Source of the DNA: Candidatus Thiodubiliella sp.
GTDB taxonomy: Bacteria > Pseudomonadota > Gammaproteobacteria > PS1 > Pseudothioglobaceae
DNA length: 64,000 bases
Assembly: GCA_029237605.1 (NCBI GenBank)
Contig: JAQRGB010000034.1
Span: 1-64,000 of the forward strand
Direction of reading: 5' to 3'
The notes beneath the pieces were generated by a model. It was not told the origin of the DNA, did not search any database, and saw only the letters and a program-made list of their open reading frames with translations. Both the position numbers and the translations under genes were made by a program. Each line of letters opens with the position of its first letter. The first letter of the stretch is position 1. This document shows, in pieces, positions 1-64,000 of this stretch.

Positions 1-7
1 TTTTGTA

Positions 8-49
8 CAACTCCTTGGCTCACAGAACGACATGGCTACGATCCGACTT
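8..49 (-). other. Sequencing adapter (BGI/MGI reverse-read adapter), full 42 nt, reverse complement
   Basis: CAACTCCTTGGCTCACAGAACGACATGGCTACGATCCGACTT; identical to many other copies in the window. Confidence 0.97.
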
Positions 50-50
50 A

Positions 51-212
51 AGAAATTGGCGCACTAAAAGCCTACATCAAGCTTGGAGAGCCACATCTGT
101 GTCTTTTATATGCTTTAGTTGGTGCGCTGGAAAATCGCTCTTGGTTGGATGTTGCACATAATGACAAAGCACGCTTACTAATTGAATTAGATAATTTCAA
201 ATATCCCAATTA
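51..212 (+). CDS. C-terminal fragment of an unidentified protein (EIGALKAYIKLGEPHLCLLYALVGALENRSWLDVAHNDKARLLIELDNFKYPN*), truncated by the adapter
   Basis: Open frame directly after the adapter, ending in TAA; no family recognised. Confidence 0.4.
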
Positions 213-819
213 ACAAAATTTTTAAGCAATTGCAATCCATCGTGCTGAGATTTTTCAGGGTGAAATTGCACAGCAAATAGATTATCTTTAGCAATCGCGC
301 AAGTAAAGTCAATGCCATAATCGCTTGACCCGGCAACCACCGAAGAATCATCCTGCTCAACATAATAGCTATGCACACTATAAAAACGTGCATTATCCTC
401 AATATTATGCCAAAGTGGATGCCCGCCCTGTATTTGTTTGACTTTATTCCAACCCATATGCGGGATTTTTAGTTCGCTTTTTGGAAAATTAACAACGTCA
501 CCAGCAAGAATAGACAGACCCTGTGTCCCGCCATTCTCTTGCGAATGATCAAATAAAAGTTGCAAGCCTAGGCAAATACCTAAAAAAGGCTTCTCATACG
601 CTGCTTGCTTAATCACATCAACCAACTCATGCGTGTTCAGTTCTTGCATACACGCACCAATTGCACCCTGCCCTGGAAATACAATACGATCTGCATTATT
701 AATTAAATCCGCATTATCAGTAAGAAAAACAAAGTCGGAGGCCAAGCGGTCTTAGGAAGCGCTTTTTGTACACTACGAACATTGCCCATGCCATAATCAA
801 CAATTGCAATACTTTGCAT
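197..819 (-). CDS. hisH: Imidazole glycerol phosphate synthase subunit HisH, frame broken by adapter at 732-759
   Basis: MQSIAIVDYGMGNVRSVQKA N-terminus (start at 819) and FLGICLGLQLLFD...FYSVHSYYVE...AVQFHPEKS motifs; adapter between. Confidence 0.93.
732..759 (+). other. Sequencing adapter (BGI/MGI forward adapter), partial 28 nt
   Basis: AAGTCGGAGGCCAAGCGGTCTTAGGAAG. Confidence 0.95.
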
Positions 820-826
820 TATAGCT

Positions 827-1408
827 TTATAAACTACCTTTAGTTGATGGAATAACGCCTGTTTGACGCTCATCTTTTATTACTGCCATTCTGAGCGCCC
901 TACCAAAAGCCTTAAAAATAGTTTCAGCTTGATGATGAGCGTTAACTCCGCTTAAGTTATCAATATGCAAAGTTATTGCGGCATGATTAACAAAACCTTG
1001 GAAAAATTCTGAAATTAAATCAACATCAAAAGTGCCAATAATTGCACGAGTAAAATTCACATTAAGCTCTAAACCTGGGCGACCTGATAGGTCTAACACC
1101 ACACGTGATAACGCCTCATCTAATGGCACATAAGCGTATCCATAACGAGTAAATCCAGCCTTATCACCTACTGTCTTTGCGAAAGCTTGGCCTAGCGTAA
1201 TGCCAATATCTTCTACGCTGTGATGGTCATCAATCTGCGTATCGCCATCGCATTTAATGGTTAAATCCATTAAACTATGGCGTGCAATCTGATCCAACAT
1301 ATGGTCTAAAAATGGCACACCAGTGTCTATATTTGCCTGGCCTGTTCCATACAAATTCAGCTCAACATGAATATCGGTTTCGTTGGTTTTTCTAGATACT
1401 TTTATCAT
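827..1408 (-). CDS. hisB: Imidazoleglycerol-phosphate dehydratase
   Basis: Intact 193 aa [47 protein letters not shown]. Confidence 0.96.
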
Positions 1409-1525
1409 GATTTTTATTTTTTTAACTTTATTTTGGTAAAAATAAGAATATTTTTATTATAACTATTGGCTACAACAATTATCAAAGAACTTTTAGCAAA
1501 TATCTTTTACCTTGATATAACTTAT

Positions 1526-2562
1526 TTACAAGTATTCTTTAATTAAAATTTCAGCAATTTGAATGGTATTAAGCGCCGCACCTTTACGAATATTATCAGA
1601 AACAACCCAAAGATTAAGTCCTTTTTCACAAGAAATATCCTCACGAATGCGGCTCACAAATGTATCATCATGATTAGCTGCCTCAATAAATGGTGTGGCA
1701 TACCCTCCATTTTCGCGCTTATCAACCACCGTAACGCCATTTGCTTTAGATAAAATTTTAGTGGCTTCAGTGGCAGTAATCTTCTTCTGGGTTTCGATAT
1801 TAATTGCTTCAGAATGTCCATAAATAACTGGCACACGAACCGCAGTAGGATTAACTAAAATATTATCATCTTCAAAAATCTTTTGCGTCTCCCACACCAT
1901 TTTCATCTCTTCTTTAGTGTAACCATTCTCTTGAAACACATCAATATGAGGAATTACATTAAATGCAATCTGCTTTGGATAAACCTCAACATCGACTTCA
2001 GTATTACCACTTAATAATTTAGTAGTTTGGTCAATTAATTCACTAATTGCCCCTTTGCCAGAACCAGACACTGCCTGATAAGTTGCAACATTAATTCTCT
2101 TAATTCCCACTGCATCATAAATTGGCTTAAGTGCTACCAACATCTGAATAGTTGAACAATTTGGGTTAGCAATAATATTATGCTTAGTGTAACCAGCAAT
2201 CGCATGCGCATTAACCTCTGGTACAACTAAAGGAATATTTTGTACAACTCCTTGGCTCACAGAACGACATGGCTACGATCCGACTTCACACAACCTGCCT
2301 CAGCCGCAATCGGCGCATATTTCTCAGAAATATTACCCCCTGCTGAGAACAGCCCCACTTGCGCCTTTGAAAAATCAAAAGTATCCAAATCTTGCACTAT
2401 CCAACTTTTTCCTTGACAAAATACCCTCTTACCATCTGAGTTAGCGCTCGCTAATGGATATAAATTATTAATCGGAAAATCACGTTGCTCTAAAATTGAG
2501 AGGATGGTCTCGCCCACTGCGCCTGTTGCACCCACAACACAAACATCTAACTTTTTATTCAT
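1526..2562 (-). CDS. asd: Aspartate-semialdehyde dehydrogenase, interrupted by adapter at 2245-2286
   Basis: N-part MNKKLDVCVVGATGAVGETIL...AEAGC and C-part IPLVVPEVN...NPNCSTIQMLVALKPIYD lie either side of the adapter. Confidence 0.95.
2245..2286 (-). other. Sequencing adapter, full 42 nt
   Basis: Exact adapter match inside asd. Confidence 0.98.
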
Positions 2563-2601
2563 AGTATAGAAATGTAAACATTATAAAAAAATTATTGGCA
2601 A

Positions 2602-3348
2602 TTATACTCTATTATCAATATCGATAAATTGATGCTCAACATCAAATTTATCGCTCAGATGTTGACACAGGGCTTGTACACCATAACGCTCAGTAGCATA
2701 ATGCCCTGCAGATATAAAAGAAATATTACTCTCTTTGGAAATCGCTGGTATTTGCTCAGATATCTCGCCTGTTATAAAACAGTCGGCATTAAGATTAATA
2801 GCATGGTCAATGTAGTTTTGTGCACCGCCTGTGCACCACGCAATGCGTTTTAATGGTTTATCGTCATCACCAAATACTAAAGGATCTCGATTAAGCACTT
2901 GTTTAATGATGCTTGAGAGTTGTGATAACGTCATATCAATCTCCCCTTGCCAAACTAGAGTATCTCCGATTGGTTTTGAATTTTTTATACCAAGACGTTG
3001 TGCAAGTTGGATGTTATTACCAACTTTTGCGTGTGCATAAGTCGGATCGTAGCCATGTCGTTCTGTGAGCCAAGGAGTTGTAGCTAAGTAATGCTTTTAT
3101 ACGGTTTTTTTAATACCTATAACTTCAAGTCCTTCATTCTTCCAGAAAAAACCATGATGTACAAATAGTGCATCGGCTTTTTCGTCAATCGCTGCGTCAA
3201 TTAAATCCTGGTTAGCGCTCACCCCTGAGATGAGTTTTTGGATTTCTGTTTTGCCCTCAATTTGCAAACCATTCGGACAATAATCAGAAAAATTATCTAC
3301 TTGCAAGTATTGATGACAATAGACAAGTAATGTTTTTTGATTAATCAT
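2602..3348 (-). CDS. Nif3-like dinuclear metal center protein (NIF3/YbgI family), interrupted by adapter at 3039-3080
   Basis: ALFVHHGFFWKNE and CTGGAQNYIDHAI...DCFITGEISEQ...SAGHYATERYGVQAL motifs on two ORFs flanking the adapter. Confidence 0.88.
3039..3080 (+). other. Sequencing adapter, full 42 nt
   Basis: AAGTCGGATCGTAGCCATGTCGTTCTGTGAGCCAAGGAGTTG. Confidence 0.98.
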
Positions 3349-3350
3349 AA

Positions 3351-4369
3351 TTAATTATAAAATTCCTCTACAATGCTGATAAATTGTTGGTTTTGTTCAC
3401 TACTTCCCACTGTCACTCGCAGACAATCTGCAAGTTTTGGCACGCTACTAAGATTTTTAATCAATATACCTTTTTGCTTTAGTGTTTCGAATAGCTCGTT
3501 GGCATTTGGCACTTTAAACAAAATAAAGTTTGCTTGTGATGAATAAACTTGAAGGCAACTAATGTTACTCAACTCCAGTGAGAGCTTATCACGCTCAGTA
3601 AGAATAATTTTTACATTTGCGTTAATTTTATTTTTTTCTTTAATAAAAAATTAGCACTCACTTGCGTTAATATATTGATATTATAAGGTAGTCTTAATTT
3701 ATCCAATTGCGTTATCGTATCTTGCACACCAATCAACAAACCTAAACGCAAGCCAGCAAAACCGATTTTTGACACTGTTCTGAGTAATACTAAATTAGGA
3801 TATTTCTTAATATCACTTAAAAAACTATCATTAGCATAGGCATAATAAGCTTCATCTAATACGACTAAGGCATCGCTTTCAGTGATGATTTCCTCAATAG
3901 CGTTTCTATCAGAACGACATGGCTACGATCCGACTTCAGTTGGATTGTTTGGATATGCGATAAAAATTAGTTTTGGTTTATGCGTTTTAATCGCTAATAG
4001 CATTGCACTTAAATCAATTTCAAACTCAGAATTTAAGCCAACACCTTGGTAATTTAAGCGTGTAAGTTTTGCAATTATCTCATACATTGCAAAACTTGGC
4101 TCAACGCTTAAAATAGTATCACCCATGTCACATGCTAATGCTAATAATTGAATAAGCTCATCAGAACCATTGCCTAGTAGAATGCCAAAGTCATTAGGTA
4201 TGTTCATCAACTCACGTAAAGTTTGTTGTAATTCTGTGGCATTTGAATTTGGATAACGATTCAACTGAGCTCTAGATAGATAGGCCAAATGTTGCCCTAT
4301 TAATTCATCTGGCAAGAGAAATGGTGATTCCATAGCGTCCAACTTCACTATATTTTCAGACATACTCAC
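3351..4369 (-). CDS. hisC: Histidinol-phosphate aminotransferase, interrupted by partial adapter (3910-3936) plus a homopolymer frameshift near 3631-3637
   Basis: LDAMESPFLLP, RYPNSNATELQQTLRE, LLGNGSDELIQLL, FIAYPNNPT; VLDEAYYAYA and TVSKIGFAGLRLG readable in the gap between ORFs. Confidence 0.93.
3910..3936 (-). other. Sequencing adapter, partial 27 nt
   Basis: CAGAACGACATGGCTACGATCCGACTT inside hisC. Confidence 0.96.
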
Positions 4370-4383
4370 ATGATAAGCATTGC

Positions 4384-4415
4384 AAGTCGGAGGCCAAGCG
4401 GTCCTTAGGAAGACA
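4384..4415 (+). other. Sequencing adapter (forward type) with one inserted C
   Basis: AAGTCGGAGGCCAAGCGGTCCTTAGGAAGACA upstream of hisC. Confidence 0.94.
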
Positions 4416-4419
4416 GTTA

Positions 4420-5791: not shown

Positions 5792-5843
5792 GATAATTAC
5801 CTATCTAAAATATTGACATTATACGAGAGTAATGGCATTGTAG

Positions 5844-6281: not shown

Positions 6282-6282
6282 A

Positions 6283-7376: not shown

Positions 7377-8267
7377 ATGTCAATAAAAAATAAAAAAGAC
7401 GCTAAAAAGAAGATAAAAAAGTTACAAAATAATAAGTATGTTATGAATAAAAGTAACGTTATGTCTGGCAATGCATTATTAAATTTATCAAAAATAGCAG
7501 GAGATTATCCCTATCCTAAAAAGATGAGTGTTGAAGAATACACAAATGAAAAGTATTTGCTACAAACAGAGTTGCTAAAAGCACAAGATTGGATTAAAAA
7601 TTACAATAAAACAGCAACTCCTTGGCTCACAGAACGACATGGCTACGATCCGACTTGGACAATTAAACGTTTTATGGAACATCTTAATCCACGTGCCGCA
7701 CGTGTCATCGCCCTAGAAAAACCATCAAGGGTTGAGCTTGGTCAGTGGTATTTCCAGCGCTATATTGAGCATTTCCCAACTAATGGCGAAATGGTATTAT
7801 TTGACCGTTCTTGGTATAATAGAGCTGGCGTAGAGCGTGTTATGGGTTTTTGTAAAAATCCAGAGTATCTTGAGTTTATGCGGCAGGCTCCTTTACTAGA
7901 GCGTATGTTGGTTAATGATGGTTTTATTCTTTCTAAATATTGGTTTTCTGTCAGTAGACAAGAGCAGTTAAGGCGCTTCCATCTACGTAAAAACGACCCT
8001 TTAAAAAGATGGAAGCTAAGTGAAATAGATTTACAATCATTAACAAAATGGGAAGAATATACCAAAGCTAAAGAAGATATGTTTTTTTATACCAATACTG
8101 CTGATTCTCCCTGGATTGTTGTAAAGTCAGATGATAAAAAACGCGCAAGAATTAATTGTATTAGACACTTCCTTTACCACTTAGATTACCAGAATAAAGA
8201 TACTAAAATAATTTTTGAACCTGATAAAAAAATTATTGGAAGTATAAATAATTTATATAAAGAATAA
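7377..8267 (+). CDS. ppk2: Polyphosphate kinase 2 family protein; the Walker A region is overwritten in frame by adapter (7615-7656)
   Basis: [74 protein letters not shown] is adapter translation. Confidence 0.93.
   Translation: MSIKNKKDAKKKIKKLQNNKYVMNKSNVMSGNALLNLSKIAGDYPYPKKMSVEEYTNEKYLLQTELLKAQDWIKNYNKTATPWLTERHGYDPTWTIKRFMEHLNPRAARVIALEKPSRVELGQWYFQRYIEHFPTNGEMVLFDRSWYNRAGVERVMGFCKNPEYLEFMRQAPLLERMLVNDGFILSKYWFSVSRQEQLRRFHLRKNDPLKRWKLSEIDLQSLTKWEEYTKAKEDMFFYTNTADSPWIVVKSDDKKRARINCIRHFLYHLDYQNKDTKIIFEPDKKIIGSINNLYKE
7615..7656 (-). other. Sequencing adapter, full 42 nt, in frame with ppk2
   Basis: Exact match. Confidence 0.98.
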
Positions 8268-19923: not shown

Positions 19924-20926
19924 GTGTCAATTCAAATTGGTCAATACCAACTGCATTCTAGAGTTTTATTAGCACCTATGGCAGGCACCAGCGACAAACC
20001 TTTTAGAATGCTATGTCGCGCACAAGGAGCGGCACTCACTACTTCTGAAATGATAAAGTCGGATCGTAGCCATGTCGTTCTGTGAGCCAAGGAGTTGTTA
20101 TCAGAATACTAAAAAATCTAAATATCGTTTAGATTTTACAGATGAATTGTCGCCTATTAGTATTCAAATTACTGGCTCTAGAGCTAAAGAATTAAGTTTG
20201 TCTGCACAAAAAGCAGTGGGGTTTGGTGCTGATATTATTGATATTAATATGGGCTGTCCTGCCAAAAAAATTTGTAATAGGGCCGCAGGTTCTGCGCTTA
20301 TGCAAGACGAAACTCTAGTCAAAGATATTCTTAATGCCGTAACAAACAGTGTTAATGTGCCTGTAACTTTAAAAATGCGTACAGGTTGGAGTCGCAATAA
20401 TAAAAATGCACTTACTATCGCACAAATTGCTCAAGACGCCGGCATACAGATGCTTAGCATACATGGCAGAACAAAAGAAGACAAATACAATGGTAAAGCA
20501 GAATATGACACTATCGCTGAAGTGGTTTCACAAATTGAAATACCTGTGATTGCTAACGGAGATATCACTTCTGTTAAAAAAGCCAAGCTAGTATTAGATG
20601 ATACAGGCGCAAGTGGTGTTATGATTGGTAGAGCCACTCAAGGCAACCCTTGGATTATTAGAGAGATCGGTCACTACTTAAAAACTGGCACATACGATAA
20701 AGGGCCTTCAACTCTATTAAAGAAACAAACCGCACTCAATCATATTCAACAAATCCACAAATTCTATGGTGAGAATATCGGTGTTCGCATTGCTAGAAAA
20801 CATATTTTTTGGTATTTACAATATTTTAAGAATAAAACTCAAACTTGTTGGGCAAAAATTAGTAAAATAACTTCTTCTAGAGAACAATGTCAATTATTCA
20901 AAAACTGTATAGATGAGTTCAACTGA
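19924..20926 (+). CDS. dusB: tRNA-dihydrouridine synthase B, interrupted by adapter at 20056-20097
   Basis: Upstream readable frame [44 protein letters not shown]; downstream [24 protein letters not shown]; followed by fis. Confidence 0.93.
20056..20097 (+). other. Sequencing adapter, full 42 nt
   Basis: Exact match inside dusB; supplies the spurious start MSFCEPRS of ORF 20072. Confidence 0.98.
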
Positions 20927-21146: not shown

Positions 21147-22705
21147 ATGATTAAACTCGCGCTCATTAGTGTTTCTGACAAGACTGGTATTCTTAAATTG
21201 GCTGAATTCTTAACCAGCAAAGATATTGGAATACTCTCTACAGGCGGTACGGCTAAACTTTTAGCTGATAACAACATTCCAGCGATTGAAGTATCAGATT
21301 ACACGGGCTTCCCTGAAATTATGGGTGGTCGCGTTAAGACACTTAACCCAAAGATTCATGGCGGAATCCTTGCACGTCGTGGGATTGATGAAGCTGTAAT
21401 GGTACAAAATAATATCAGCCCGATTGACTTGGTTGTAGTCAATCTCTATCCTTTCCAAGAAACAATTAACAGCCCAAATTGCACACTAAAAGATGCGATT
21501 GAAAATATTGATATTGGAGGCCCAGCAATGTTGCGCTCTGCGGCTAAAAACCACGAATCAGTGACAGTGATAGTTGAGACATCAGACTACCAAACAGTAA
21601 TTGATGAAATCAATACAGATGGTGGTACAACACTAGATACTCGTATTAAATTAGCGCTTAAAGTCTTTGAGCATACTGCCAAATATGATGGCACGATTGC
21701 CAATTATTTAGGCAAAGAAGCTGATGGCTTTTGTACAACTCCTTGGCTCACAGAACGACATGGCTACGATCCGACTTCAAAACTCAGTCAATGCGCTATG
21801 GCGAAAACCCCCATCAATCAGCTGCTTTCTATGTTGAAAAAAATATTACTGAGGCTTGTATAGCGTCATCGAGGCAATGCCAAGGTAGGGGAATGTCGTA
21901 TAACAATATGGTAGATGCTGATGCGGCACTTGAGTGCGTACGCACTTTTAATGAACCATGTTGCGTTATTGTTAAACATGCTAACCCGTGCGGCGTTGCC
22001 GTGCGCTTAAACATTTTTGATGCTTATAATGATGCCTTTAAAGCCGATCCAACTTCAGCATTTGGTGGTATCATTGCCTTTAATCGTGACTTAGATAAAA
22101 AAACAGCAAAAACAATTATTGAACGTCAATTTGTTGAAGTTATCATTGCACCAAATATTAATAATGATGCTAAAAAAATCCTAGCAAACAAACAAAATAT
22201 TCGCGTTTTAGAATGCGGTCACCTGAACGCAGCGCAACCATCACTAGACTATAAGCGTGTTACTGGTGGGCTATTAGCGCAAGACAAGGACCTGGGAATT
22301 ATTGATGAAAACGATATTAAATGCGTTAGCGATTTAGCGCCAACAAACGAGCAAGTCAAGGACCTGTTATTTGCCTGGAGAGTGGCTAAAATAGTTAAGT
22401 CAAATGCCATTGTTTATGTTAAAAATCAGATGACAATTGGCATAGGCGCAGGACAAATGTCCCGTATTTATTCAGCAAAAATTGCTGGCATTAAAGCTAC
22501 TGATGAAGGTCTAAAAGTTGAAGGCTCGGTGATGGCGTCAGATGCCTTCTTTCCATTCAGAGATGGAATTGACGCAGCAGCACAATCTGGGATCAACGCC
22601 ATCATCCAACCTGGTGGCTCGATACGTGATGCAGAAGTAATTGAAGCAGCAAACCAGCATGGTATAGCTATGGTGTTTACTGATATGCGTCACTTTAAAC
22701 ACTGA
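21147..22705 (+). CDS. purH: Bifunctional AICAR transformylase/IMP cyclohydrolase, interrupted by adapter at 21736-21777
   Basis: [16 protein letters not shown]...[48 protein letters not shown]. Confidence 0.96.
21736..21777 (-). other. Sequencing adapter, full 42 nt
   Basis: Exact match inside purH. Confidence 0.98.
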
Positions 22706-24911: not shown

Positions 24912-25473
24912 ATGTCAATACAATTGATGCGCCAATCCCTAAGGATAAAACGACATGCCATCAGAGCGCGTGAGCGCGAGCAATTTGCTAAAAAAATATT
25001 ACATCAAGTGCAAAAGATAAGCAATGTTCAACACGCTAAGAAAATGGCACTTTATTTAGAAAACGATGGAGAAAAAGTCGGATCGTAGCCATGTCGTTCT
25101 GTAAAAAAACAGGGCGTTATTGTCTATTTACCAATATTAGTCGGCAAAAACCTTAAATTTGCAAAAATTGGTAAATCTTTTAAAAAAAATAAATTTGGCA
25201 TCACAGAACGACATGGCTACGATCCGACTTTTAAGTGCTAAACATCTCAATGTTATCTTTATGCCATTGCTTGGTTTTGATAAGAATAAGTGCCGTATCG
25301 GCATGGGTGGTGGCTTCTACGACCGCGCATTATCTTTTAAAAAACACCAAACAAACTACAATAATCCAAAACTCTATGGACTAGCATTTGATTGTCAACA
25401 AGTTACAGAAATTAACAACCAACCTTGGGATATACCGCTTGACGCAGTCATTACTCCAACTAAAATTTATTAA
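24912..25473 (+). CDS. fau: 5-formyltetrahydrofolate cyclo-ligase, interrupted by two partial adapters
   Basis: MRQSLRIKRHAIRAREREQFAKK; GMGGGFYDRALSF; downstream of 6S RNA. Confidence 0.88.
25075..25102 (+). other. Sequencing adapter, partial 28 nt
   Basis: AAGTCGGATCGTAGCCATGTCGTTCTGT. Confidence 0.96.
25201..25230 (-). other. Sequencing adapter, partial 30 nt
   Basis: TCACAGAACGACATGGCTACGATCCGACTT. Confidence 0.96.
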
Positions 25474-29118: not shown

Positions 29119-29834
29119 CGCATATTTTTTGTGCTTGAATAAAATCTAGCGTACCTTCATAAATTGCACGTCCAGTAATTGCACCTATGATACCATGGTG
29201 TGCCTCGCTGAGTAGCCCAGATATATCGTCTATATTGGTGATGCCACCAGAAGCAATAACAGGAGTTGATATCTGCTTAGCAAGAGTCGCCGTTGTTTCA
29301 ATATTTACACCATGCATCATACCATCGCGCGCAATATCAGTATAAATAATCGAGCTCACACCGTACTGCTCAAACTTTTTCGATAAATCAATAACACGTA
29401 AATTTGTCTTCTGTACCCATCCTTCTGTTGCCACAAGGTCATCATTTGCATCTAAGCCCACAATTATCTTGCCGGGAAATTCACAACATAGCTGTGATAC
29501 AAACTCTGGATGTGTAACTGCCATCGTGCCAATAATCAAATAACTAACGCCCATCTCAATATACGCATTAGCAATATACATATCGCGTATACCTCCGCCA
29601 ATCTGTACTGACAAATCAGGGAACGCCGATACAATCTGCATTACACTTGTCGCATTCACAGGCTTACCTTCAAATGCCCCATTTAGATCCACTAGATGCA
29701 AACGCCTTGCTCCTTGTTGCGCCCACTGCGCCGCCATATCTACTGGAAGTCGGATCGTAGCCATGTCGTTCTGTGAGCCAAGGAGTTGTACAAAATTGCC
29801 CATCTTTTAAATCTATCGCTGGAATTATTATCAT
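29108..29834 (-). CDS. hisA: Phosphoribosylformimino-5-aminoimidazole carboxamide ribotide isomerase, interrupted by adapter at 29747-29788
   Basis: True start [13 protein letters not shown] at 29834; [11 protein letters not shown]... style motifs ([23 protein letters not shown]). Confidence 0.93.
29747..29788 (+). other. Sequencing adapter, full 42 nt
   Basis: Exact match. Confidence 0.98.
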
Positions 29835-31654: not shown

Positions 31655-32824
31655 ATGAATAACGACTTCCCACGAATAAAAAGATTGCCTGAATATGTTT
31701 TTGTACAACTCCTTGGCTCACAGAACGACATGGCTACGATCCGACTTGGCATGGGCAATCCTGACCAGCCAACGCCTGAACATATTGTGGAAAAATTAGT
31801 AGAAGCATCGCGCCGTGACGACACACATCGTTACTCTACTTCTCGTGGCATCCCACGTTTAAGGCATGCGATTGCAAACTGGTATAAAAATCGTTTTGAT
31901 GTTACTATTAACGCAGAAACTGAAGCGATTGTTACTATTGGCTCAAAAGAGGGTTTAGCAAATTTAGCACAAGCAATTGTTGGTAGTGGTGATACAGTTT
32001 TAGTCCCTAGTCCAGCTTACCCCATTCATCCTTATGGGTTTGTAATTGCAGGTGCTGATATTCAACATGTGCCTTGTGGTCCTGAATATGATTTTTTTAC
32101 AGAGTTGAGGCGCTCAATTAAAAATACTTTCCCAAAACCAAAGATGTTGGTGCTTAATTACCCATCTAACCCAACTACCGAGTGTGTTGAATTAGAGTTT
32201 TTTGAGCGTGTTATCAAAACTGCCAAAGAGCACAAAATTTGGGTAGTGCAAGATTTAGCTTACGCGGACATTGTATTTGATGATTATGTAGCACCAAGCA
32301 TTCTGCAAATAAAAGGCGCTAAAGATATTGCGGTTGAGTTTTTCTCATTATCAAAAAGTTACAATATGCCAGGTTGGCGTGTTGGCTTTATGGTGGGAAA
32401 TCCAATCTTAGTAGGTGCACTGGCTAAAATCAAGTCTTATTTAGATTATGGTATGTTTACCCCTATTCAAATAGCGGCAATTGAGGCGTTAGAAGGTGAC
32501 CAAAGTTGTGTTAGAGAAATTGCACAAATGTATCAAGACAGGCGTGATGTTTTGTGTAAAGGCTTAAACTCTATTGGCTGGACAGTGGCACCACCCAAAG
32601 CCACAATGTTTGTTTGGGCGCAAATTCCTGAATTTTATCAAGAAATAGGTTCGTTAGAATTTACCAAAAAACTAATTAAAATAGCAAAAGTTGGGGTCTC
32701 TCCTGGTATTGGTTTTGGTGAATATGGTGATAAATATGTACGCTTTAGCTTGATTGAAAATGAACATCGCACCCGTCAAGCTGTTCGCGGCATTCGTGAA
32801 ATGTTTAAACAAGTCGGATCGTAG
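31655..32824 (+). CDS. alaC: AlaC-type aminotransferase; adapter in frame at 31706-31747 and adapter at the 3' end
   Basis: [10 protein letters not shown]...[49 protein letters not shown] is adapter translation. Confidence 0.92.
31706..31747 (-). other. Sequencing adapter, full 42 nt
   Basis: Exact match. Confidence 0.98.
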
Positions 32825-32852
32825 CCATGTCGTTCTGTGAGCCAAGGAGTTG
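32811..32852 (+). other. Sequencing adapter, full 42 nt
   Basis: Exact match between alaC and the ATPase gene. Confidence 0.98.
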
Positions 32853-33701
32853 TTATCAGGAAACTTTCTGCTAAAGAATTTTCTAAATTAAAAAATAAAC
32901 GCCTAACGTTACTCGGTATGTCAGGTGTTGGCAAAACACATCTTTCAAAGTTACTCAGTCTTAATGACAAGTGGTATCATTATTCTGGTGATTATCGTAT
33001 TGGTGCCAAGTATCTTAATAATAACATCCTGGGCAATATAAAGCAAAAAATCTCCCAGGACAAGAGCTTGGCTAAATTATTAAGCTACGATCCGACTTAA
33101 CTCTATCAGTATTAAAAATCATGTTACTTTTGACAATTTATCTTTGGTATCGGACTTTTTAGGCAAAGTTGGCAACCCAGAACAAGATGGTTTGCCAATT
33201 GATGAGTTTATGTGTCGTCAAGCATTATTTAAAACAGCAGAATCTATGGCAATGTTAGATGTAGTTAAATTTATTGAAACATCACAACAAAAATTTAATC
33301 ATTTTATTAATGATGCTGGCGGCAGCCTGTGTGAATTGAACGATAAAAAAGTATATGAAACACTATCTGAGTGTACGCTTATCCTTTATATTCGAGCAAG
33401 TAAAGACAATGAATTGGCGTTAATTAGACGCGCACAAACACACCCAAAGCCCTTATATTATCAAGCTGATTTTCTTAGACAGCAATTAAATTTCTACTTA
33501 CAAGAAAATCAACTGAACTATGTCGCACAAATTAACCCAAATGAATTTGTACGCTGGATATTCCCACGCCTACTTGAACATCGCAAGCCAAAATATGAAG
33601 CAATTGCCACACAATATGGCTACACCATTGATAGCCAAGACTTATACCAATGTAAAAACGCCAACGAGGTGCTTAAACTTATCTACGGAGCACTTGGCTA
33701 A
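32853..33701 (+). CDS. P-loop ATPase, start masked by adapter and interrupted by a 15-nt adapter remnant (33084-33098)
   Basis: LTLLGMSGVGKTHLSKLL Walker A in ORF 1; C-part ORF 33144-33701 (SDFLGKVGNPEQDGLPIDEFMCRQALFKTAES). Confidence 0.75.
33084..33098 (-). other. Short adapter remnant (15 nt)
   Basis: GCTACGATCCGACTT, exact to adapter end; splits the ATPase frame. Confidence 0.8.
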
Positions 33702-34962: not shown

Positions 34963-35892
34963 ATGCATTTAATTCGCGGTTTACAAAATTTAAAAAAACT
35001 TCCAGGCAGTAGTGCAGTTACCATCGGCAACTTCGATGGTGTGCATATAGGGCATAGAAAAATCATCTCACAATTGGTAAAAAAGTCCAAAAAACTGAGC
35101 TTATCCTCTGTGCTAATTTCATTTGCGCCCACTCCACAGAATTTTTTTTTTCGTGAACAAGCGTCACTTAGTAATTTTAAAGAAAAATACTATCTATTAC
35201 GCGAACTGGGTTTAGACATATGTTTAATTATCCATTTAAGCCAAGCTTTTTCTCAATTAGATGCTCAAAATTTTGTACAAAAAATATTGCTTAATAAACT
35301 AAATATGAAATATTGTCTGACTGGTGATGATTTTTGTTTTGGTAAAAACAGAAGAGGTGATTTTAAACTGCTGCAAGTTCTATCAAAAGACAGCGGCTTT
35401 ACCGTAAAAAAAGCATCAAGCGTTTTGTGTAACAATCATCGTGTTAGCAGTTCGGCAATTCGCACATTTTTAAAATACGGCGACATGCAATCAGCATCAC
35501 AAATGTTGGGGCGTGAGTTTTCTATCGCTGGCAAAGTTGTACATGGATTGAAAAATGGTCGTATCATTAATTTTCCTACTATCAACATTCCTATTAAACG
35601 CAAAATTAGCCCAATTTATGGGGTATTTGCTGTAACTGTTGAGTTGTATGGCACAACTTATCAAGGTGTGTGTAATATTGGCAATAGGCCGATTATAAAA
35701 GGTGGAAACAACTTGTTAGAAATATTTTTATTTAACTTTAATCGTGAAGTTTACGGGATTGAGGTAAAAGCCACCTTTAAACACAAGATTACGATCCGAC
35801 TTCAATATTTTAGTAATTTTGAGTTATTAAAACAACAAATCAAAATTGATGTTAAGGATGCTGAAGACTACTTTAACAAACTTTCCAGCTGA
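34963..35892 (+). CDS. ribF: Bifunctional riboflavin kinase/FAD synthetase
   Basis: AVTIGNFDGVHIGHRKII, LTGDDFCFGKNRRGDF, VSSSAIRTFLKYGD. Confidence 0.94.
   Translation: MHLIRGLQNLKKLPGSSAVTIGNFDGVHIGHRKIISQLVKKSKKLSLSSVLISFAPTPQNFFFREQASLSNFKEKYYLLRELGLDICLIIHLSQAFSQLDAQNFVQKILLNKLNMKYCLTGDDFCFGKNRRGDFKLLQVLSKDSGFTVKKASSVLCNNHRVSSSAIRTFLKYGDMQSASQMLGREFSIAGKVVHGLKNGRIINFPTINIPIKRKISPIYGVFAVTVELYGTTYQGVCNIGNRPIIKGGNNLLEIFLFNFNREVYGIEVKATFKHKITIRLQYFSNFELLKQQIKIDVKDAEDYFNKLSS
35790..35802 (-). other. Possible short adapter remnant (about 12 nt)
   Basis: ACGATCCGACTT inside ribF, in frame, giving TIRLQ. Confidence 0.55.
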
Positions 35893-37949: not shown

Positions 37950-40621
37950 GGCATTGTTTGTATTTTTTACCTGAACCACAATGGCATGGGCTGTTGCGTC
38001 CTATTTTCTCACCACTGCGCTGATAAGTTTGCAATCCACTTGGGCTTTTGTTGTCTATATTTTTCATCGCCGCCGCTTCGTGGCGCATTTGCTGTGTATC
38101 GTTATTGTTTTGTTGTTCTACATCATCAGCACTGGTATTTTCATTAATAGCCACACTGGAGAGTGCCTTAACAATCTCAACATTAATCGTGTTTAATAAA
38201 GTCTCAAACATTGCAAAAGATTCACGCTTATATTCTTGTGTTGGGTTTTTCTGTGCATAGCCTCGTAAATTCACACTTTGACGTAAGTAATCCATAGCCG
38301 CCAAATGCTCTTTCCAAAAATGATCTAAAGTTTGTAGCATTACCGCTTTTTCAAAGCCACGCATTTGTTCGCTACCAACAAGTCGGATCGTAGCCATGTC
38401 GTTCTGTGAGCCAAGGAGTTGTTATCAGGACCTTGGGAAATTCTTGATTTCAATTTGCCCACATCCACACCTTCATCTAGCCATTCTTGTAATGGGAAAG
38501 TAGCTGCATAGTCTGCCTTCAATGCATTATGTAAGCCTTCAACGTCCCAATCTTCTTCAGACTGTATTAACGAGATATAATCGGCAAATAAATCACAGAA
38601 CGACATGGCTACGATCCGACTTCATTATTAGAACCCATTAATTCATCTCGTAATTTATAAACTACTCTGCGCTGGTCATTCGACACATTGTCATACTCTA
38701 AGAGGTGTTTACGCGAATCATAGTTCATGCCTTCGACTTTTTTCTGTGCATTTTCGATAGCACGATTTACCATCTTATGTTCAATGGCTTCGCCTTTTTT
38801 CATGCCCAATCTCTGCATCATTGTTGCCATTTTTTCACTAGCAAAAATACGCATTAAATTGTCTTCCAAAGATAGATAAAAACGCGTTGACCCTACATCA
38901 CCTTGACGACCAGAACGGCCACGTAACTGATTATCCACACGACGAGACTCATTGCGCTCAGTGCCGACAATATGCAATCCACCAGCTTTAATCACGTCGT
39001 CATGATGCTTTTGCCAATCTTGTTTTTGCGCATCGGTTGCATCTTCTGTTAATTTACCTCCAAGCACAATATCTGTGCCCCTACCAGCCATATTTGTCGC
39101 AATTGTTACCGCGCCAATCGCTCCAGCATTAGCAATAATTTGTGCTTCTCGCTCATGCTGTTTAGCGTTCAAAACTTCGTGTTTAATATTCTTCTGTAAT
39201 AGAAGTGCTGAAATTGCCTCAGAATTCTCGATACTACTTGTGCCTACCAAAACAGGCTGTCCTGTTTTTTGGCATCCCTCTATGTCTTTAGCAATTGCTT
39301 CTAATTTTTCATCTAAAGTTAGATAAATTTGATCTGGCATATCGTCTCGTGACGATGGCTTGTTCGGTGGGACGACCACAGTTTCTAAATTATAAATCGA
39401 CTGAAACTCAACTGCCTCAGTGTCCGCTGTACCTGTCATACCCGAAAGCTTGTTGTAGAGTCTGAAATAGTTCTGAAAAGTAATTGACGCCAAGGTTTGA
39501 TTTTCATTTTTAATACTCACGCCTTCTTTAGCTTCAATCGCCTGATGCAGTCCTTCAGACCAACGACGCCCTGGCATAGCCCTACCGGTAAACTCATCAA
39601 CAATCACTACTTCATCACCGTCAATAATATAATTGTCATCTTTGTGGAACAAAACATGCGCACGCAATGCTGAACTAATATGCTGCATCAACAAAAGATT
39701 ACTTGCATCATATAAATTCGCTCCTTCCAATAAAACACCTGTCTCAATTAACAGGATTTCTGCCTTGGCGTGTCCACTATCAGTCAAAAATACCTGCTGA
39801 TGCTTTTCATCAACGGTGTAATCACCTTCTTCTTCAACCACAATTTCTTTACCTTCTCCGCTCTCAGTTTGCTTGATAAAATTTGGAATCATGTGATTAA
39901 TCGCCTGATAAACATCAGAATAATCGTCTGCTGGGCCAGAAATAATAAGCGGCGTTCTAGCTTCATCAATTAAAATAGAATCAACTTCATCAATAATAGC
40001 AAAATTAAGTTCGCGCTGTACTTTTTGCTCAGCAGTGAACGCCATGTTATCTCTTAAATAGTCAAAGCCTAACTCATTATTTGTCGCATAAACAATATCA
40101 CAGTTATAAGCGTCTTTTTTATTTTCTGGCGGCATATCTGAAGTAACAACGCCAACACTCAAACCTAAAAAATCAAATATTTTGCCCATCCACTGTGCAT
40201 CACGCGCCGCCAAATAATCATTTACCGTAACTATATGAACGCCATTACCAGTAAGCGCGTTTAAATAAGCAGGCAAAGTTGCTACCAAAGTTTTTCCTTC
40301 ACCAGTGCCCATTTCTGAAATATTGCCATCACTAAGCACCATGCCACCAATCATTTGCACATCATGGTGCCTAAGCCCCAACACTCTAACGCTGGCTTCA
40401 CGCATCACTGCAAATGCTTCTGGCAATAAAGATCTTAATGTTGCTTGTTTTTCAAACTTTTGCTTAAATTCTTGCGTTTTAGCCTTTAATTCTTTGTCAT
40501 CTAAAGCCTGTAATCCTGGCTCAAGTATATTAATACTCTCAATCACTTCGCTAAGTTTTTTTATTAATCTATTGTTACGAGAGCCAATAATCTTAGAGGC
40601 AATTTTATTTATAATACTCAT
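37936..40621 (-). CDS. secA: Preprotein translocase SecA, split into three ORFs by two adapters
   Basis: [28 protein letters not shown]-terminal [17 protein letters not shown] zinc motif. Confidence 0.97.
38380..38421 (+). other. Sequencing adapter, full 42 nt
   Basis: Exact match in secA. Confidence 0.98.
38593..38622 (-). other. Sequencing adapter, partial 30 nt
   Basis: TCACAGAACGACATGGCTACGATCCGACTT. Confidence 0.97.
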
Positions 40622-41695: not shown

Positions 41696-42919
41696 ATGAA
41701 TAATAATAAAAACTGGATTGACCAAAGATTTCCGTTAACTAAAGTTTGGAACGAGCATTTAGCAGAATACTACACACCAAGAAATTTTAATTTTTGGTAC
41801 TTTTTTGGTTCATTAGCAATTCTAGTATTAGTAATGCAAATTGTTACCGGCATATTCTTAACTATGCACTTTAAGGCTGATGAAGCCAATGCATTTGCTT
41901 CAGTTGAATATATTATGCGTGATGTTGATTGGGGTTGGTTAATTCGCTATATGCATTCAACAGGCGCATCAGCATTCTTCATAGTGATTTACCTACATAT
42001 GTACCGTGCCTTGCTTTATGGTTCATACAAAACACCGCGTGAATTAATTTGGATTATTGGTATGGTACTCTATATTGTGCTAATGGCCGAAGCATTTATG
42101 GGCTATGTATTACCATGGGGGCAGATGTCTTATTGGGGGGCACAAGTAATTATTTCACTATTTGGCTCTGTGCCATTTATTGGACCTGATCTGTTAATAT
42201 GGATTTTAGGTGACTACGTAGTAGGTGATCCTGCGCTAAACCGTTTTTTCTCATTGCATGTTATTGCGTTACCACTTATCTTGGTAATATTAGTATTCTT
42301 ACACATTGTGGCATTGCATACAGTTGGGTCAAACAACCCAGATGGCATTGAAATCAAAAAGAATAAAGATAAAAAAGGCATTCCTAAAGATGGTATTCCA
42401 TTTCACCCCTACTACAGCGTAAAAGATATTGTTGGCGTAGTGGTATTCTTAATGATTTTCTCAGCTGTTGTGTTTTTTTCGCCAACTCTCAACGGTTATT
42501 TTCTAGAGAATGCTAATTTTGTTGAGGCCAACCCGCTTAAAACACCTGACCATATCGCGCCACTTTGGTATTTAACGCCCTTTTATTCAGTGTTAAGAGC
42601 AATTCCACCAATGTTTGGTTCACAATTTCCAGGGGTTATGGGTATGTTTTCATCGTTACTAATTCTATTAGCTCTACCATGGTTAGACCGTTCTAAAGTA
42701 AAGTCAATTCGTTACCGCTCATATCCATATAAAATTGCATTAGGTATTTTTGTGGTGAGTTTTATTTATTTGGGTTACTTAGGCATGCAGCCAGTAACAC
42801 CAACAAATGTCTTTTTAGCGCGTGTATTTACTGTTGCTTATTTTGGCTTCTTTATCTTAATGCCTTGGTTTACCTCAATTGGAAAAACCAAGACAGAACC
42901 TAAAAGAATAACAGGGTAA
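41696..42919 (+). CDS. petB: Cytochrome b
   Basis: HSTGASAFFIVIYLHMYRALLYGSY, GYVLPWGQMSYWGAQVI. Confidence 0.97.
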   Translation: MNNNKNWIDQRFPLTKVWNEHLAEYYTPRNFNFWYFFGSLAILVLVMQIVTGIFLTMHFKADEANAFASVEYIMRDVDWGWLIRYMHSTGASAFFIVIYLHMYRALLYGSYKTPRELIWIIGMVLYIVLMAEAFMGYVLPWGQMSYWGAQVIISLFGSVPFIGPDLLIWILGDYVVGDPALNRFFSLHVIALPLILVILVFLHIVALHTVGSNNPDGIEIKKNKDKKGIPKDGIPFHPYYSVKDIVGVVVFLMIFSAVVFFSPTLNGYFLENANFVEANPLKTPDHIAPLWYLTPFYSVLRAIPPMFGSQFPGVMGMFSSLLILLALPWLDRSKVKSIRYRSYPYKIALGIFVVSFIYLGYLGMQPVTPTNVFLARVFTVAYFGFFILMPWFTSIGKTKTEPKRITG

Positions 42920-42920
42920 T

Positions 42921-42955
42921 AAGTCGGATCGTAGCCATGTCGTTCTGTGAGCCAA
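42921..42955 (+). other. Sequencing adapter, partial 35 nt
   Basis: AAGTCGGATCGTAGCCATGTCGTTCTGTGAGCCAA; masks the petC start. Confidence 0.97.
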
Positions 42956-43705: not shown

Positions 43706-44340
43706 TGTTAAGTAAAATAAACCAATCTTCAACTATTCTTTATTCTTCTATTAGTGGAATGGAATCGCATATAGTACGCTTTATTATGGCAGAAAAGAAA
43801 ATTGAAAGAGAGATTATTAACTTAAAAATCAAAGATTTCCCTGAAGAAATCTTTGATTTCACAGAACGACATGGCTACGATCCGACTTTATTTGACCGTG
43901 GTGTTATTTTATACGACCTTTCTGTCATCATGGAATACCTAGATGAGAGATTTCCATTCCCCCCATTGTTACCCGTTGACCCAATTGAAAAATCAAAAAA
44001 ACGTCTACTAATATTTAGATTTACAAGAGCAACTGGCAACTGGTTTGAATTAGTAAATACCATCCAAACAGGTATAAAAAAAGATGCTGATAATGCAAGA
44101 AAAATCATTAAAAGCAACTTAATAGAATTAACGCCTCTGTTTGCACACCAGCCTTTCTTTAATAGCAACAGCATGACGATTGTTGATGCTTGCTTAGCAG
44201 TATTGTTATGGCGTTTAAAAAGGCTGGATATTAATTTGGGAAAACCAGGAAAAGCGGCAACTGATTATGCAAAGCGTTTGTTTGCAAGAGAAGGGTTTAA
44301 AGAAAGTTTGACTGATTGTGAGAAAGAATATAACACCTAG
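43706..44340 (+). CDS. sspA: Stringent starvation protein A (GST-fold), adapter in frame at 43859-43888
   Basis: GVILYDLSVIMEYLDERFPFPPLLPVDPIEKSK; petABC-sspA synteny. Confidence 0.9.
43859..43888 (-). other. Sequencing adapter, partial 30 nt
   Basis: TCACAGAACGACATGGCTACGATCCGACTT. Confidence 0.97.
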
Positions 44341-48986: not shown

Positions 48987-49715
48987 TTAAAAAATACCAC
49001 TAATAGCTCTAATTAAACCTTTTTCTAGCTCTTTTTGTGCATCATCAAATTTCAAGTTCACTTTGTTTGCTGTGCTAACAATGCGAGAGCGGTATGTTTT
49101 CCAATTAATCCTTCCCCCTGTTATTTTTTGTATAACCTTAGTTCCTGTTCCTTGAGATATATTGGTGTTTTGTTGTTGCGTAATGCTTTCGTCAGTTAGT
49201 GGCCTTTCTCTGACCTGAATATCAGTTATCATATTATAAACAACATCTTCTATCAAAGTCGGATCGTAGCCATGTCGTTCAAAACTAAATACTCCGGATA
49301 TTAATCCAACATTTTTTACAGAATTAGGGCTATTTCCTAATAAAGCTGCCCCAACAATTGCGCCACCGAAGCCGCCAACCAAAGCCGAAGTAGACTCTCT
49401 TAAGTCTGATTTTCCAACCTTTAATATATTAGCTTGTAACATAAAATTAGCACTATCTGGGTTTTGTGTTAAGACATAACCATTGCTAATTAATATTTTT
49501 TCAATCTTAGGCTCGACATGCAGATCTTTATCTGATGTATTGCGAATATCAATATATATATATTTTTTATCTGGCCTGACTGGCTCTAAAAATATCGTGT
49601 CGCTCATTTTAGTTTGTACATCTAAATTAGCTTTTTTAATTAAAGTTTGTACAGCACAAGATGTTAGTCCAAATACTATTAAAAATATTACAGATAAATT
49701 TATTATTATTTTCAT
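48987..49715 (-). CDS. TraT-like complement-resistance lipoprotein family, adapter in frame at 49256-49280
   Basis: Lipobox [48 protein letters not shown] is adapter translation. Confidence 0.82.
   Translation of the reverse strand: MKIIINLSVIFLIVFGLTSCAVQTLIKKANLDVQTKMSDTIFLEPVRPDKKYIYIDIRNTSDKDLHVEPKIEKILISNGYVLTQNPDSANFMLQANILKVGKSDLRESTSALVGGFGGAIVGAALLGNSPNSVKNVGLISGVFSFERHGYDPTLIEDVVYNMITDIQVRERPLTDESITQQQNTNISQGTGTKVIQKITGGRINWKTYRSRIVSTANKVNLKFDDAQKELEKGLIRAISGIF
49256..49280 (+). other. Sequencing adapter, partial 25 nt
   Basis: AAGTCGGATCGTAGCCATGTCGTTC. Confidence 0.95.
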
Positions 49716-52216: not shown

Positions 52217-54633
<2,417 letters not shown>

Positions 54634-57174: not shown

Positions 57175-58475
57175 TTATAAGTTAGCTAGTTTTAATTTAA
57201 TTACCTCGTGATTACTTTTTGTTTCAGCCTCTTCAATTTTTAATTTAATTTTTTTTATGGCATAAAAAACTGTGGAATGATCACGGTTTCCAAAATGTTT
57301 TCCAATATTTGTTAAAGATAAATCTGTAAGTTCATGTGCTATGAAAATTGCTGTTTGTCGAGCTAAAACAATATGTTTTTTTCGGCTTTTTGAGCTTAAA
57401 TCTGATACAGTAATTGCATAATATTTAGCAATTACTTTTTGTATATCATTAATATCAACAGCTACAGTTTGTGATTTAATTAAATCTTCTAGAGCAGTAT
57501 CTATAACTTCTTTGGTAACAATAAGGTTGGGTAATTTAGAAAAATCAATGAATGCCTTAAGCTTTAACAACGCACCTTCTAAATCTCGTACATTTGAGTT
57601 TATATTACCTGCAATATAACAGAACGACATGGCTACGATCCGACTTGTTCAATATTAATTTTTTTATTGTGTGCTTTTTTAAGTAGAATTGCGGCACGCA
57701 TTTCTAATTCTGGCGGCTTTAAAAGCAGGTTTAAGCCTTGAGAGAATCTTGTTTTTAAACGTCCTTCTAAAGATTTAATGTTTTTTGGCGATTGATCACA
57801 AGTGAATATAATCTGCTTTTTTGTATTAAATAAGAAATTAAAAATATGAAAAAATTCTTCTTGAGATTTTTCCTTACCGGCAATTAAGTGAATATCATCC
57901 ACTAATAATAAGTCTGCTGATTGGTAGTAAGATTTAATATCTTCAATAGTATTGTGGCGAAGGCTAGTGGTGATATTTCTGACAAAATCCATTAGTGGTA
58001 CATAGATAACTTTGGTTTTAATATTTTTTTCTTGTGTTAAATGCCCTGCAGCTTGCATTAAATGTGTTTTTCCTAACCCTGAATCACCATAAATAATACA
58101 AGGGTTGTAAGGAGAACTTTCAAGATTTTCTGCGATTTGCTGAATAGCGCCATAGGCTATTTGATTGGCGTTACCTAAAACTAAATTGTCAAAAGTATAG
58201 TCACTTAGAAGCGGCGTTGTGTGTTGTTTTTTTACTTGTAGTTGTATTGTAGTACCAATTAAAACTTTAAGATTTTTGTTGTGTTGTGTAATAGCATCTT
58301 TAATTTTTTGCTTTAGGTTCTTTTTAAGATATTTTACCGCTGAATTATTAGGCGCTAATATTGTCAAAGTACCATTTTTTTCTTGAGCTATTAATGGCTT
58401 AATCCAAACACTAAATTGCCCTATTGGCACAGTGTCTTTTAGGGTTTCTAGGCATTTTTTCCAAGTTTTTGACAT
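57175..58475 (-). CDS. dnaA: Chromosomal replication initiator DnaA, interrupted by partial adapter 57620-57646
   Basis: YGDSGLGKTHLMQAAGH, LLVDDIHLIAGKEKSQEEFFHIFN, HFGNRDHSTVFYAIKKI. Confidence 0.97.
57620..57646 (-). other. Sequencing adapter, partial 27 nt
   Basis: CAGAACGACATGGCTACGATCCGACTT. Confidence 0.97.
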
Positions 58476-59216: not shown

Positions 59217-59275
59217 TTGATTTTTTTATTCAATTAGAGTAACATTGTTTAATTTCATATTAATATCAATATATT

Positions 59276-60022: not shown

Positions 60023-60027
60023 TTATT

Positions 60028-60393
60028 ATGTCATTTCAAGTTGTTTTAGTTATTCATATGTTGTTGGCATTTGGTCTAATCACACTTATCTTAATGCAAC
60101 ATGGTAAAGGCGCAGATGCTGGTGCTGCTTTTGGTTCTGGCGCTTCAGGATCAGTTTTTGGAGCACGTGGCGCAAATTCATTCGTATATAAACTAACTGC
60201 CAGTATTGCTGTTGGTTTTTTTATTACTAGTTTGACTTTAGCGTATCTTGCAACGCCAACAAGCACAGAAATAAAGCCTAAAAGTGTGATGGATCAAGTA
60301 CTTATTGATCCAGTGCCATTAAATAAAGAGACAACGATTGACTTAGTGCCGTCAATTAAAGATAAGAATACAACGATTGACGTTCCTAAATAA
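60028..60393 (+). CDS. secG: Preprotein translocase subunit SecG
   Basis: LILMQHGKGADAGAAFGSGASGSVFGARGANSF; tpiA-secG-tRNA-Leu synteny. Confidence 0.96.
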   Translation: MSFQVVLVIHMLLAFGLITLILMQHGKGADAGAAFGSGASGSVFGARGANSFVYKLTASIAVGFFITSLTLAYLATPTSTEIKPKSVMDQVLIDPVPLNKETTIDLVPSIKDKNTTIDVPK

Positions 60394-60407
60394 TACTAAT
60401 TATTTTT

Positions 60408-60493
60408 GCCGATGTGGTGGAATTGGTAGACACGCTACCTTGAGGGGGTAGTAAGCTATGCTTGTGCGAGTTCAACTCTCGCCGTCGGCACCA
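60408..60493 (+). tRNA. tRNA-Leu (anticodon GAG), CCA encoded
   Basis: GCCGATG...CGTCGGCACCA acceptor; CTACCTTGAGGGGGTAG anticodon arm; GTTCAACTC T-loop; long variable arm. Confidence 0.96.
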
Positions 60494-60538
60494 TTTTTTG
60501 TTTTGTATTTTATTTTTACTATGTAAAATTTAAAGAAA

Positions 60539-60566
60539 CTTGACTTTTCTCTGTCAAGGTTTTTTG
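60539..60566 (+). terminator. Rho-independent terminator after tRNA-Leu
   Basis: CTTGAC-TTTTCTCT-GTCAAG followed by GTTTTTTG. Confidence 0.75.
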
Positions 60567-60584
60567 TATGCCGTTCAATTTTGG

Positions 60585-61754: not shown

Positions 61755-61935
61755 TGGTATATATTTATTTTTATTTACATACAATAGAATTGTCAATTAT
61801 TTATTAACTGTAAGATACAATGGTTCTTGTATGTATATATCTTGTTTTAAGTTGTGCAAGTGTAAAAGTATAATTTTTATGAATTATACTGCAAACTTGA
61901 TAATCGATAAGACCAAGTGGGGTTAGGTAGTAAGG

Positions 61936-62448
61936 TTATTTGTCTTTATGCCTTCTGTCAAGTCGGAGGCCAAGCGGTCTTAGGAAGACAATCCGTGGGT
62001 TTTTATCATTTGGCTTATGGCTCTCTCTAAATGTTTCAACAAAATCATCTCGATTAAATTCAGGGAAGTAGGCGTCGCCTTTAAATTTGCCTTCAATTTG
62101 GGTGATATAGAGCCTATCAACGCTTGGCAGTGTTTGCTCATAGAGTGATGCGCCGCCAATTACTATTACATCTTTTTTAGTTAATTTTAGTGCAATACTT
62201 ATACTGTCAACCATTTCGCAGCCCTCAGCTTGAAAATCAATATTACGGCTTATTATTATATTGCGACGATTGTCCAGTGGTTTGCCAATGGATTCATAAG
62301 TTTTACGCCCCATTAGCACTGGCTTGTTGCTGGTGATTTTTTTAAAATAGGCCAAATCTGCAGGCAGACGCCAAGGTAAGGCGTTGTTGTTGCCGATAAG
62401 TTGATTATCATCCATTGCTACAATAATAGATAAGCACATAATAAACAA
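61936..62448 (-). CDS. folA: Dihydrofolate reductase, C-terminal codons overwritten by adapter
   Basis: IVAMDDNQLIGNNNALPWRLPADLAYFKKIT, VLMGRKTYESIGKPLDNRRNI. Confidence 0.95.
   Translation of the reverse strand: MFIMCLSIIVAMDDNQLIGNNNALPWRLPADLAYFKKITSNKPVLMGRKTYESIGKPLDNRRNIIISRNIDFQAEGCEMVDSISIALKLTKKDVIVIGGASLYEQTLPSVDRLYITQIEGKFKGDAYFPEFNRDDFVETFRESHKPNDKNPRIVFLRPLGLRLDRRHKDK
61960..61991 (+). other. Sequencing adapter (forward type), full 32 nt
   Basis: AAGTCGGAGGCCAAGCGGTCTTAGGAAGACAA. Confidence 0.98.
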
Positions 62449-62501
62449 TAAAGTAAAATAATGCTATTTTACAAACACCTTTATCAGTTGTGTTATTAAT
62501 T

Positions 62502-62533
62502 TTGTCTTCCTAAGACCGCTTGGCCTCCGACTT
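62502..62533 (-). other. Sequencing adapter (forward type), full 32 nt
   Basis: TTGTCTTCCTAAGACCGCTTGGCCTCCGACTT. Confidence 0.98.
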
Positions 62534-63053
62534 GAAAAAAGCTGCTTAATAAATTGGGCTTGGACTTTGATATTGTATCACCAGATATTGACGAATCCAG
62601 AAAGGCCAACGAAACGCCCAAGCAGTTGGTGTTTAGATTGGCACAAGAAAAAGCACGAGAAGTGGCGAAAAGCCACAGTGGACTTATTATTGCTTCTGAC
62701 CAAGTAGCAATACTCGGTGATGAAATTCTGACAAAACCACAATTACATGAAAATGCCGTTAAGCAACTTGAGAAGAGTTCTGGAAATAGCGTAATATTTT
62801 TTACAAGCTTGACGCTTTTAAACACAGATAACGATACAATAGACACAGTTGTTGAAGAGTCTAGGGTTGTTTTTAAAATTTTGAGTGCCAAGCAAATTGA
62901 GAATTATTTGCAAAAAGAACAACCTTATAACTGCGTGGGCAGCTTCAAGTCAGAAACCTTGGGCATAAGTCTTGTAGAGCGTATAGAGGGCAGAGACCCT
63001 AATGCTTTGATTGGCTTGCCACTAATTAAACTCATAAAAATGTTAGAGAATCA
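62534..63053 (+). CDS. maf: Maf-like nucleotide pyrophosphatase, both ends cut by adapters
   Basis: KKLLNKLGLDFDIVSPDIDESRKANETPKQLVFRLAQEKAREVA, IIASDQVAIL, GLPLIKLIKML. Confidence 0.9.
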
Positions 63054-63085
63054 AAGTCGGAGGCCAAGCGGTCTTAGGAAGACAA
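63054..63085 (+). other. Sequencing adapter (forward type), full 32 nt
   Basis: AAGTCGGAGGCCAAGCGGTCTTAGGAAGACAA. Confidence 0.98.
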
Positions 63086-63095
63086 TATTTTTTAT

Positions 63096-64000
63096 ATGCA
63101 ATATCTTTATCCTCAAGGCATAACGCCTTTTAAATCTGGGCAAAAATCCTATTGGGGCTCGCTCTATGGCAGCGCACAGGCGCTGGCTCTAGTTGAGTTT
63201 GCTAAAACACAAGATAATGTTATTTTGGTGGTGGCAAATGATATTAATCATTTCGACCAGTTATTTAAATCACTGCATTTTTATAATATTGGTTTGGATA
63301 TTCTCAGGTTTGATAATTGGGAAGTGCTGGCTTTTGATCATTTTTCTCCACATCCAGATATTACCTCAAGTCGGCTCAACACTTTGTCAAAATTACCTGA
63401 GCTTAAAAGTGGCATTGTTATTACTACATTAGAGTCATTAACACAGCGATTATGCCCAATAGAATTTAGCAAAGGATGCGTCTTTAGCCTCAAAGTTGGA
63501 GATACGCTGGAAATACAAGCCTTTGCCCAGCATTTACTTAAAATTAACTACAATCGAGTAATGAGAGTGATGGAGCATGGTGAATTTAGTATCAAAGGTT
63601 CGTTATTAGATGTCTATCCTATGGGTGCTGATATGCCATATCGTTTGGATTTGTTTGATCAAGAAATTGAATCTATTCGCCTATTTGACACTTCAACACA
63701 GCGCTCTGTGGAAACAATACAAGAAGTTTTCTTATTACCAGCGAGAGAGTTTGCCACAGATCAAAATAGCATTGAGGCTTTTAAAGAAAACTATCAAAAA
63801 ACTTTTGGAGATACTAATGGTTTTATTTTTGATGAAGTCAGCGAATCACGTTTACCGAACGGTATTGAGTTTTATCTTTCGTTATTTTTTACTCACACTA
63901 ATACTTTGTTTGATTATTTACCAAGTGACAGCATTATTGCCACCAGTCATGGCTTTAACACACTTGTAGAGTTAACTTATGATGAAATACATAGTAGATA
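63096..64000 (+). CDS. mfd: Transcription-repair coupling factor Mfd, N-terminal part running off the window (absent from the ORF track as no stop)
   Basis: SGQKSYWGSLYGSAQALALVEFA, MEHGEFSIKGSLLDVYPMGADMPYRLDLFDQEIESIRLFDTSTQRSVE. Confidence 0.9.
   Translation, partial: MQYLYPQGITPFKSGQKSYWGSLYGSAQALALVEFAKTQDNVILVVANDINHFDQLFKSLHFYNIGLDILRFDNWEVLAFDHFSPHPDITSSRLNTLSKLPELKSGIVITTLESLTQRLCPIEFSKGCVFSLKVGDTLEIQAFAQHLLKINYNRVMRVMEHGEFSIKGSLLDVYPMGADMPYRLDLFDQEIESIRLFDTSTQRSVETIQEVFLLPAREFATDQNSIEAFKENYQKTFGDTNGFIFDEVSESRLPNGIEFYLSLFFTHTNTLFDYLPSDSIIATSHGFNTLVELTYDEIHSR

Follow-up and report, generated by a model that had tools for sequence, protein, structure and literature searches.

Adapters of the BGISEQ/MGI DNBSEQ platform are the closest described counterpart of the repeats analysed here. 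The "left" and "right" adapters of the BGISEQ-500 are printed in PMC10788357 (AAGTCGGATCG... and AAGTCGGAGGCC...), and the pair is also given for a BGI hybrid assembly in PMC12454333, where one member (adapter A, below) is printed slightly differently. The first 30 bases of adapter A were found in at least 85 stretches of named GTDB genomes, spanning Planctomycetota, Gammaproteobacteria, Fibrobacterota, cyanobacteria (Tychonema), actinobacteria (Pseudonocardia), Clostridia and others. When such stretches were checked, the copy pointed outward and lay 110 nt or less from the end of the stretch in 78 of 80. The adapter was also present in four phage records and in one of 5,426 E. coli genomes, always about 260 nt or less from the record end. 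This contamination thus usually appears as an adapter at the tip of an assembled sequence, pointing outward. Many GTDB representative genomes carry the adapter at contig tips, including a large set of CSMAG metagenome bins.

The same oligonucleotide occurs in the present assembly and differs from the described pair in its place only, deep inside contigs. In the CSMAG MAGs, Roseisolibacter sp. H3M3-2 and Tychonema sp. BBK16, the adapter is the same and points outward as it does here, with the tips mostly at contig ends; in the present assembly, by comparison, the tipped contigs were scaffolded, and the tips are buried in long contigs and displace sequence. This is very probably an unusual form of a known contamination: buried tips overwrite real sequence in scaffolded contigs instead of adding to it, are missed by contig-end trimming and make essential genes resemble pseudogenes.

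Adapter copies and their identity

The window (the whole stretch of DNA analysed, 64,000 nt) is part of contig 34 of an assembly of 1.325 Mb in 44 contigs. The initial annotation had reported about 27 copies of two fixed sequences on both strands, nearly free of mutations, with truncations that almost always keep the AAGTCGG end. Full and truncated copies on both strands indeed numbered 27 (20 of adapter A, 42 nt; 7 of adapter B, 32 nt), with 10 exact full copies of A and 5 of B (0 expected for either, from shuffles). The AAGTCGG end (adapter base 1) was kept in every one of the 27 copies; three other AAGTCGG heptamers were present in the window (13017, 30754 and 63368), against 2.8 expected by chance. 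For strand, block and error counts, about 450 kb of the assembly was read in stretches, and small internal errors were found in only three copies, all of B: window 4384-4415 (extra C), G000:C12:38420 and G000:C23:31603. In each of these, the error includes one surplus base within or close to a short run, perhaps left by a fill or polishing step. The copies in the window are as follows:

8..49, minus strand: adapter A, full (exact match), then barcode start TACAAAA; left end of the contig
732..759, plus strand: adapter B, bases 1-28; glutamine amidotransferase gene
2245..2286, minus strand: adapter A, full, and barcode start; asd
3039..3080, plus strand: adapter A, full, and barcode start; NIF3-like gene
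3910..3936, minus strand: adapter A, bases 1-27; aminotransferase gene (also carries the 4384 copy)
4384..4415, plus strand: adapter B with one extra C; aminotransferase gene already hit at 3910
7615..7656, minus strand: adapter A, full, and barcode start; in frame within polyphosphate kinase 2
20056..20097, plus strand: adapter A, full, and barcode start; dihydrouridine synthase gene
21736..21777, minus strand: adapter A, full, and barcode start; purH
25075..25102, plus strand: adapter A, bases 1-28
25201..25230, minus strand: adapter A, bases 1-30
29747..29788, plus strand: adapter A, full, and barcode start; hisA
31706..31747, minus strand: adapter A, full, and barcode start; in frame, alanine-transaminase-like aminotransferase gene
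32811..32852, plus strand: adapter A, full, and barcode start; end of the alanine-transaminase-like gene hit at 31706
33084..33098, minus strand: adapter A, bases 1-15; within an ORF conserved in G007
35790..35802, minus strand: adapter A, bases 1-13; 3' part of ORF 34963-35892
38380..38421, plus strand: adapter A, full, and barcode start; secA
38593..38622, minus strand: adapter A, bases 1-30; secA (second copy)
42921..42955, plus strand: adapter A, bases 1-35; between ORF 41696-42919 and the cytochrome c1 gene
43859..43888, minus strand: adapter A, bases 1-30; GST-like gene
49256..49280, plus strand: adapter A, bases 1-25; TraT-family ORF
53140..53171, minus strand: adapter B, full; gyrB
53702..53733, plus strand: adapter B, full; gyrB (second copy)
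57619..57646, minus strand: adapter A, bases 1-28; dnaA
61960..61991, plus strand: adapter B, full
62502..62533, minus strand: adapter B, full
63054..63085, plus strand: adapter B, full

Both sequences are identical, letter for letter, to the adapter pair of PMC10788357. On the 3' side of full A copies, mostly recurring strings were found (TACAAAA, TTATCAGG, TAGCTAAGT, GGTCTAGT, CTGTTTGG, ACTCTCT and AGTTGCCA). Many full copies of B are extended on the 3' side by one of seven complete 10-mers in reverse complement (TACAAAAGGA, ACTCTCTACC, TTATCAGGTC, CTGTTTGGAC, GGTCTAGTCA, TAGCTAAGTG and TAAGAGACCC), which agree with the starts found after A and are followed by CAACTCC, the reverse complement of the 3' end of A. 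The recurring 10-mers are taken to be sample barcodes, in keeping with the known DNBSEQ adapter layout, and the complete oligonucleotide was thus recovered: A, a 10-base sample barcode and the reverse complement of B. No natural repeat built in this way is known to us. Only the synthetic oligonucleotide explains such 3' extensions, in which a barcode precedes the reverse-complemented partner adapter.

The initial annotation had named the BGI/MGI DNBSEQ pair and had read the dominant repeat as adapter contamination, not biology; the published identity, the barcodes with the partner adapter and the contig tips in unrelated organisms bear out both statements. The repeats are an ordinary contamination artefact of low biological interest, and the "broken" genes are artefactual. 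What is added here is the tip-and-fill anatomy, the replacement of real sequence and the absence of target-site duplications.

Genes affected and replacement of genomic bases

The estimate of about 20 interrupted genes, many of them essential, held roughly: about 16-17 recognisable genes are touched, and secA, gyrB, dnaA and purH each carry adapter, although not every copy breaks a frame. The frame is intact at 7615 (polyphosphate kinase 2) and at 31706 (aminotransferase), and the copy at 42921 lies at a gene end. Two copies each are carried by the aminotransferase gene, the alanine-transaminase-like gene, secA and gyrB. ORF 48987-49715, still in frame through the adapter at 49256, matches Pfam TraT (PF05818) strongly and over the full length; this family takes its name from enterobacterial conjugative plasmids.

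For comparison, proteins were taken from 700 kb of G007, a single-contig genome of the same genus, in which the orthologues of hit genes that could be aligned across a site are uninterrupted. At 37 gene sites aligned on both sides of the tip (found through a change of frame, so that in-frame sites are under-counted), the net extra DNA had a median of 8 nt (-10 to +38), against a median tip length of 46 nt. In polyphosphate kinase 2 (7377-8267), the frame continues across the adapter without a break, and 229 residues match 229 profile positions. Because the net gain is small relative to the tip length and this frame is kept, we conclude that the tips mostly overwrite the bases they cover, which refines the earlier wording that they interrupt genes. 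For repeats of 4-9 nt, target-site duplications were no more frequent than in a shifted control.

As the adapters mostly replace bases, their excision would not restore the genes and editing of the contigs is insufficient; the earlier recommendation to rebuild the assembly from trimmed reads is therefore endorsed. In this 1.3-Mb assembly, parts of genes, dnaA, gyrB, secA and purH among them, are overwritten by more than 200 adapter copies in a manner that could be mistaken for gene decay, and any gene-loss or pseudogene claim that rests on this assembly is unsafe.

Strand order, block lengths and proposed origin

Along the window, the strand of the copies alternates at 25 of 26 steps, which was reached in none of 100,000 shuffles. 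Over the 450 kb, it alternates at 136 of 155 steps (shuffle mean 80, maximum 106); the remaining 19 steps would require contig ends that are short, lost or untipped. Where a plus copy follows a minus copy, the two delimit a block with outward adapter tips at both ends. All 69 such blocks, tips included, measure about 500 nt or longer (shortest counted 494, or about 506 if the B copy with the extra C at 4384 is taken whole), whereas the 67 plus-to-minus stretches (fills) range from 10 nt to 9 kb. The shortest 18 of the 136 stretches are all plus-to-minus (P = 8e-7 if both classes share one length distribution). An outward adapter starts contigs 1, 23 and 34, and at C12:81048-81114 seven Ns separate an A tip from a B tip that faces it.

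Given the strand alternation and the floor of about 500 nt on outward-tipped blocks, the copies are almost certainly DNBSEQ adapter tips of untrimmed short-read contigs that subsequently went through scaffolding and gap filling. In this course of events, short inserts would have been read through into the adapter and the reads left untrimmed, and a short-read assembler, with a cut-off of 500 bp, would have ended contigs in A or B, complete or partial, sometimes together with the barcode and the start of the partner adapter. Later scaffolding and gap-filling would have joined the tipped contigs with their tips kept, and the length of each tip would be close to that of the genomic sequence it displaced. 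We infer that long reads supplied the fill and that a hybrid assembler was most likely responsible. Hybrid metagenome assemblers such as OPERA-MS start from short-read contigs that are linked by long reads (PMC11458758). A literature search for a symbiont paper naming both OPERA-MS and MGI returned nothing useful.

Three other origins were weighed. It is possible, though rather unlikely, that both the scaffolding of the tipped contigs and the filling of gaps relied only on paired short reads: runs of 7 and 96 Ns are present and the excess of frameshifts in fills, which filling by long reads would predict, is suggestive but not significant (0.149 per kb, against 0.069 in contig blocks, P = 0.11), but the fills reach 9 kb, a considerable length for paired-end gap closing. 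It is improbable that adapter ends were written into the consensus of a long-read assembly when it was polished with untrimmed short reads. In favour of this, replacement at about equal length would also fit a consensus edit, and the closed relative G007 can be aligned to either side of every site of this kind; against it, polishing gives no cause for strands to alternate (25/26) or for a floor of about 500 nt on one class of blocks only, and one N gap is flanked by two tips that point at each other. A genuine mobile element or dispersed repeat spread in this genome (MITE-like, IS fragment or REP-type), as might be suggested by many near-identical copies on both strands, within and between genes, was ruled out with next to no doubt by the barcodes beyond the adapter cores, the lack of excess target-site duplications, the replacement instead of insertion of its own length (8 nt against 46 nt at 37 sites) and the near-perfect strand alternation, as well as by the letter-for-letter commercial identity, the presence at contig ends in unrelated phyla and the lack of any copy of A elsewhere in the family (82 other genomes).

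For adapter tips in scaffolded contigs, the combination of alternating strands, a floor of about 500 nt on outward-tipped blocks and replacement provides a simple test that can be applied to other scaffolded assemblies.

Distribution in the rest of the assembly

At least 130 copies of the first 22 bases of A and at least 77 of the first 18 bases of B (at least 207 together) were found in the assembly, in which a reversed control pattern gave no match. Two runs of exactly 96 N are present (G000:C12:30078-30173, inside a short tandem repeat of CTACT/CTAAT units, and G000:C34:71200-71295), and these resemble the product of a second round of scaffolding. On contigs 12, 23 and 34, the adapter density is one per 2-4 kb. 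Only three adapter copies lie in about 480 kb of G000:C1 (approximately 84,500-568,000), where the short-read assembly was far less broken, perhaps through coverage or another origin of the stretch.
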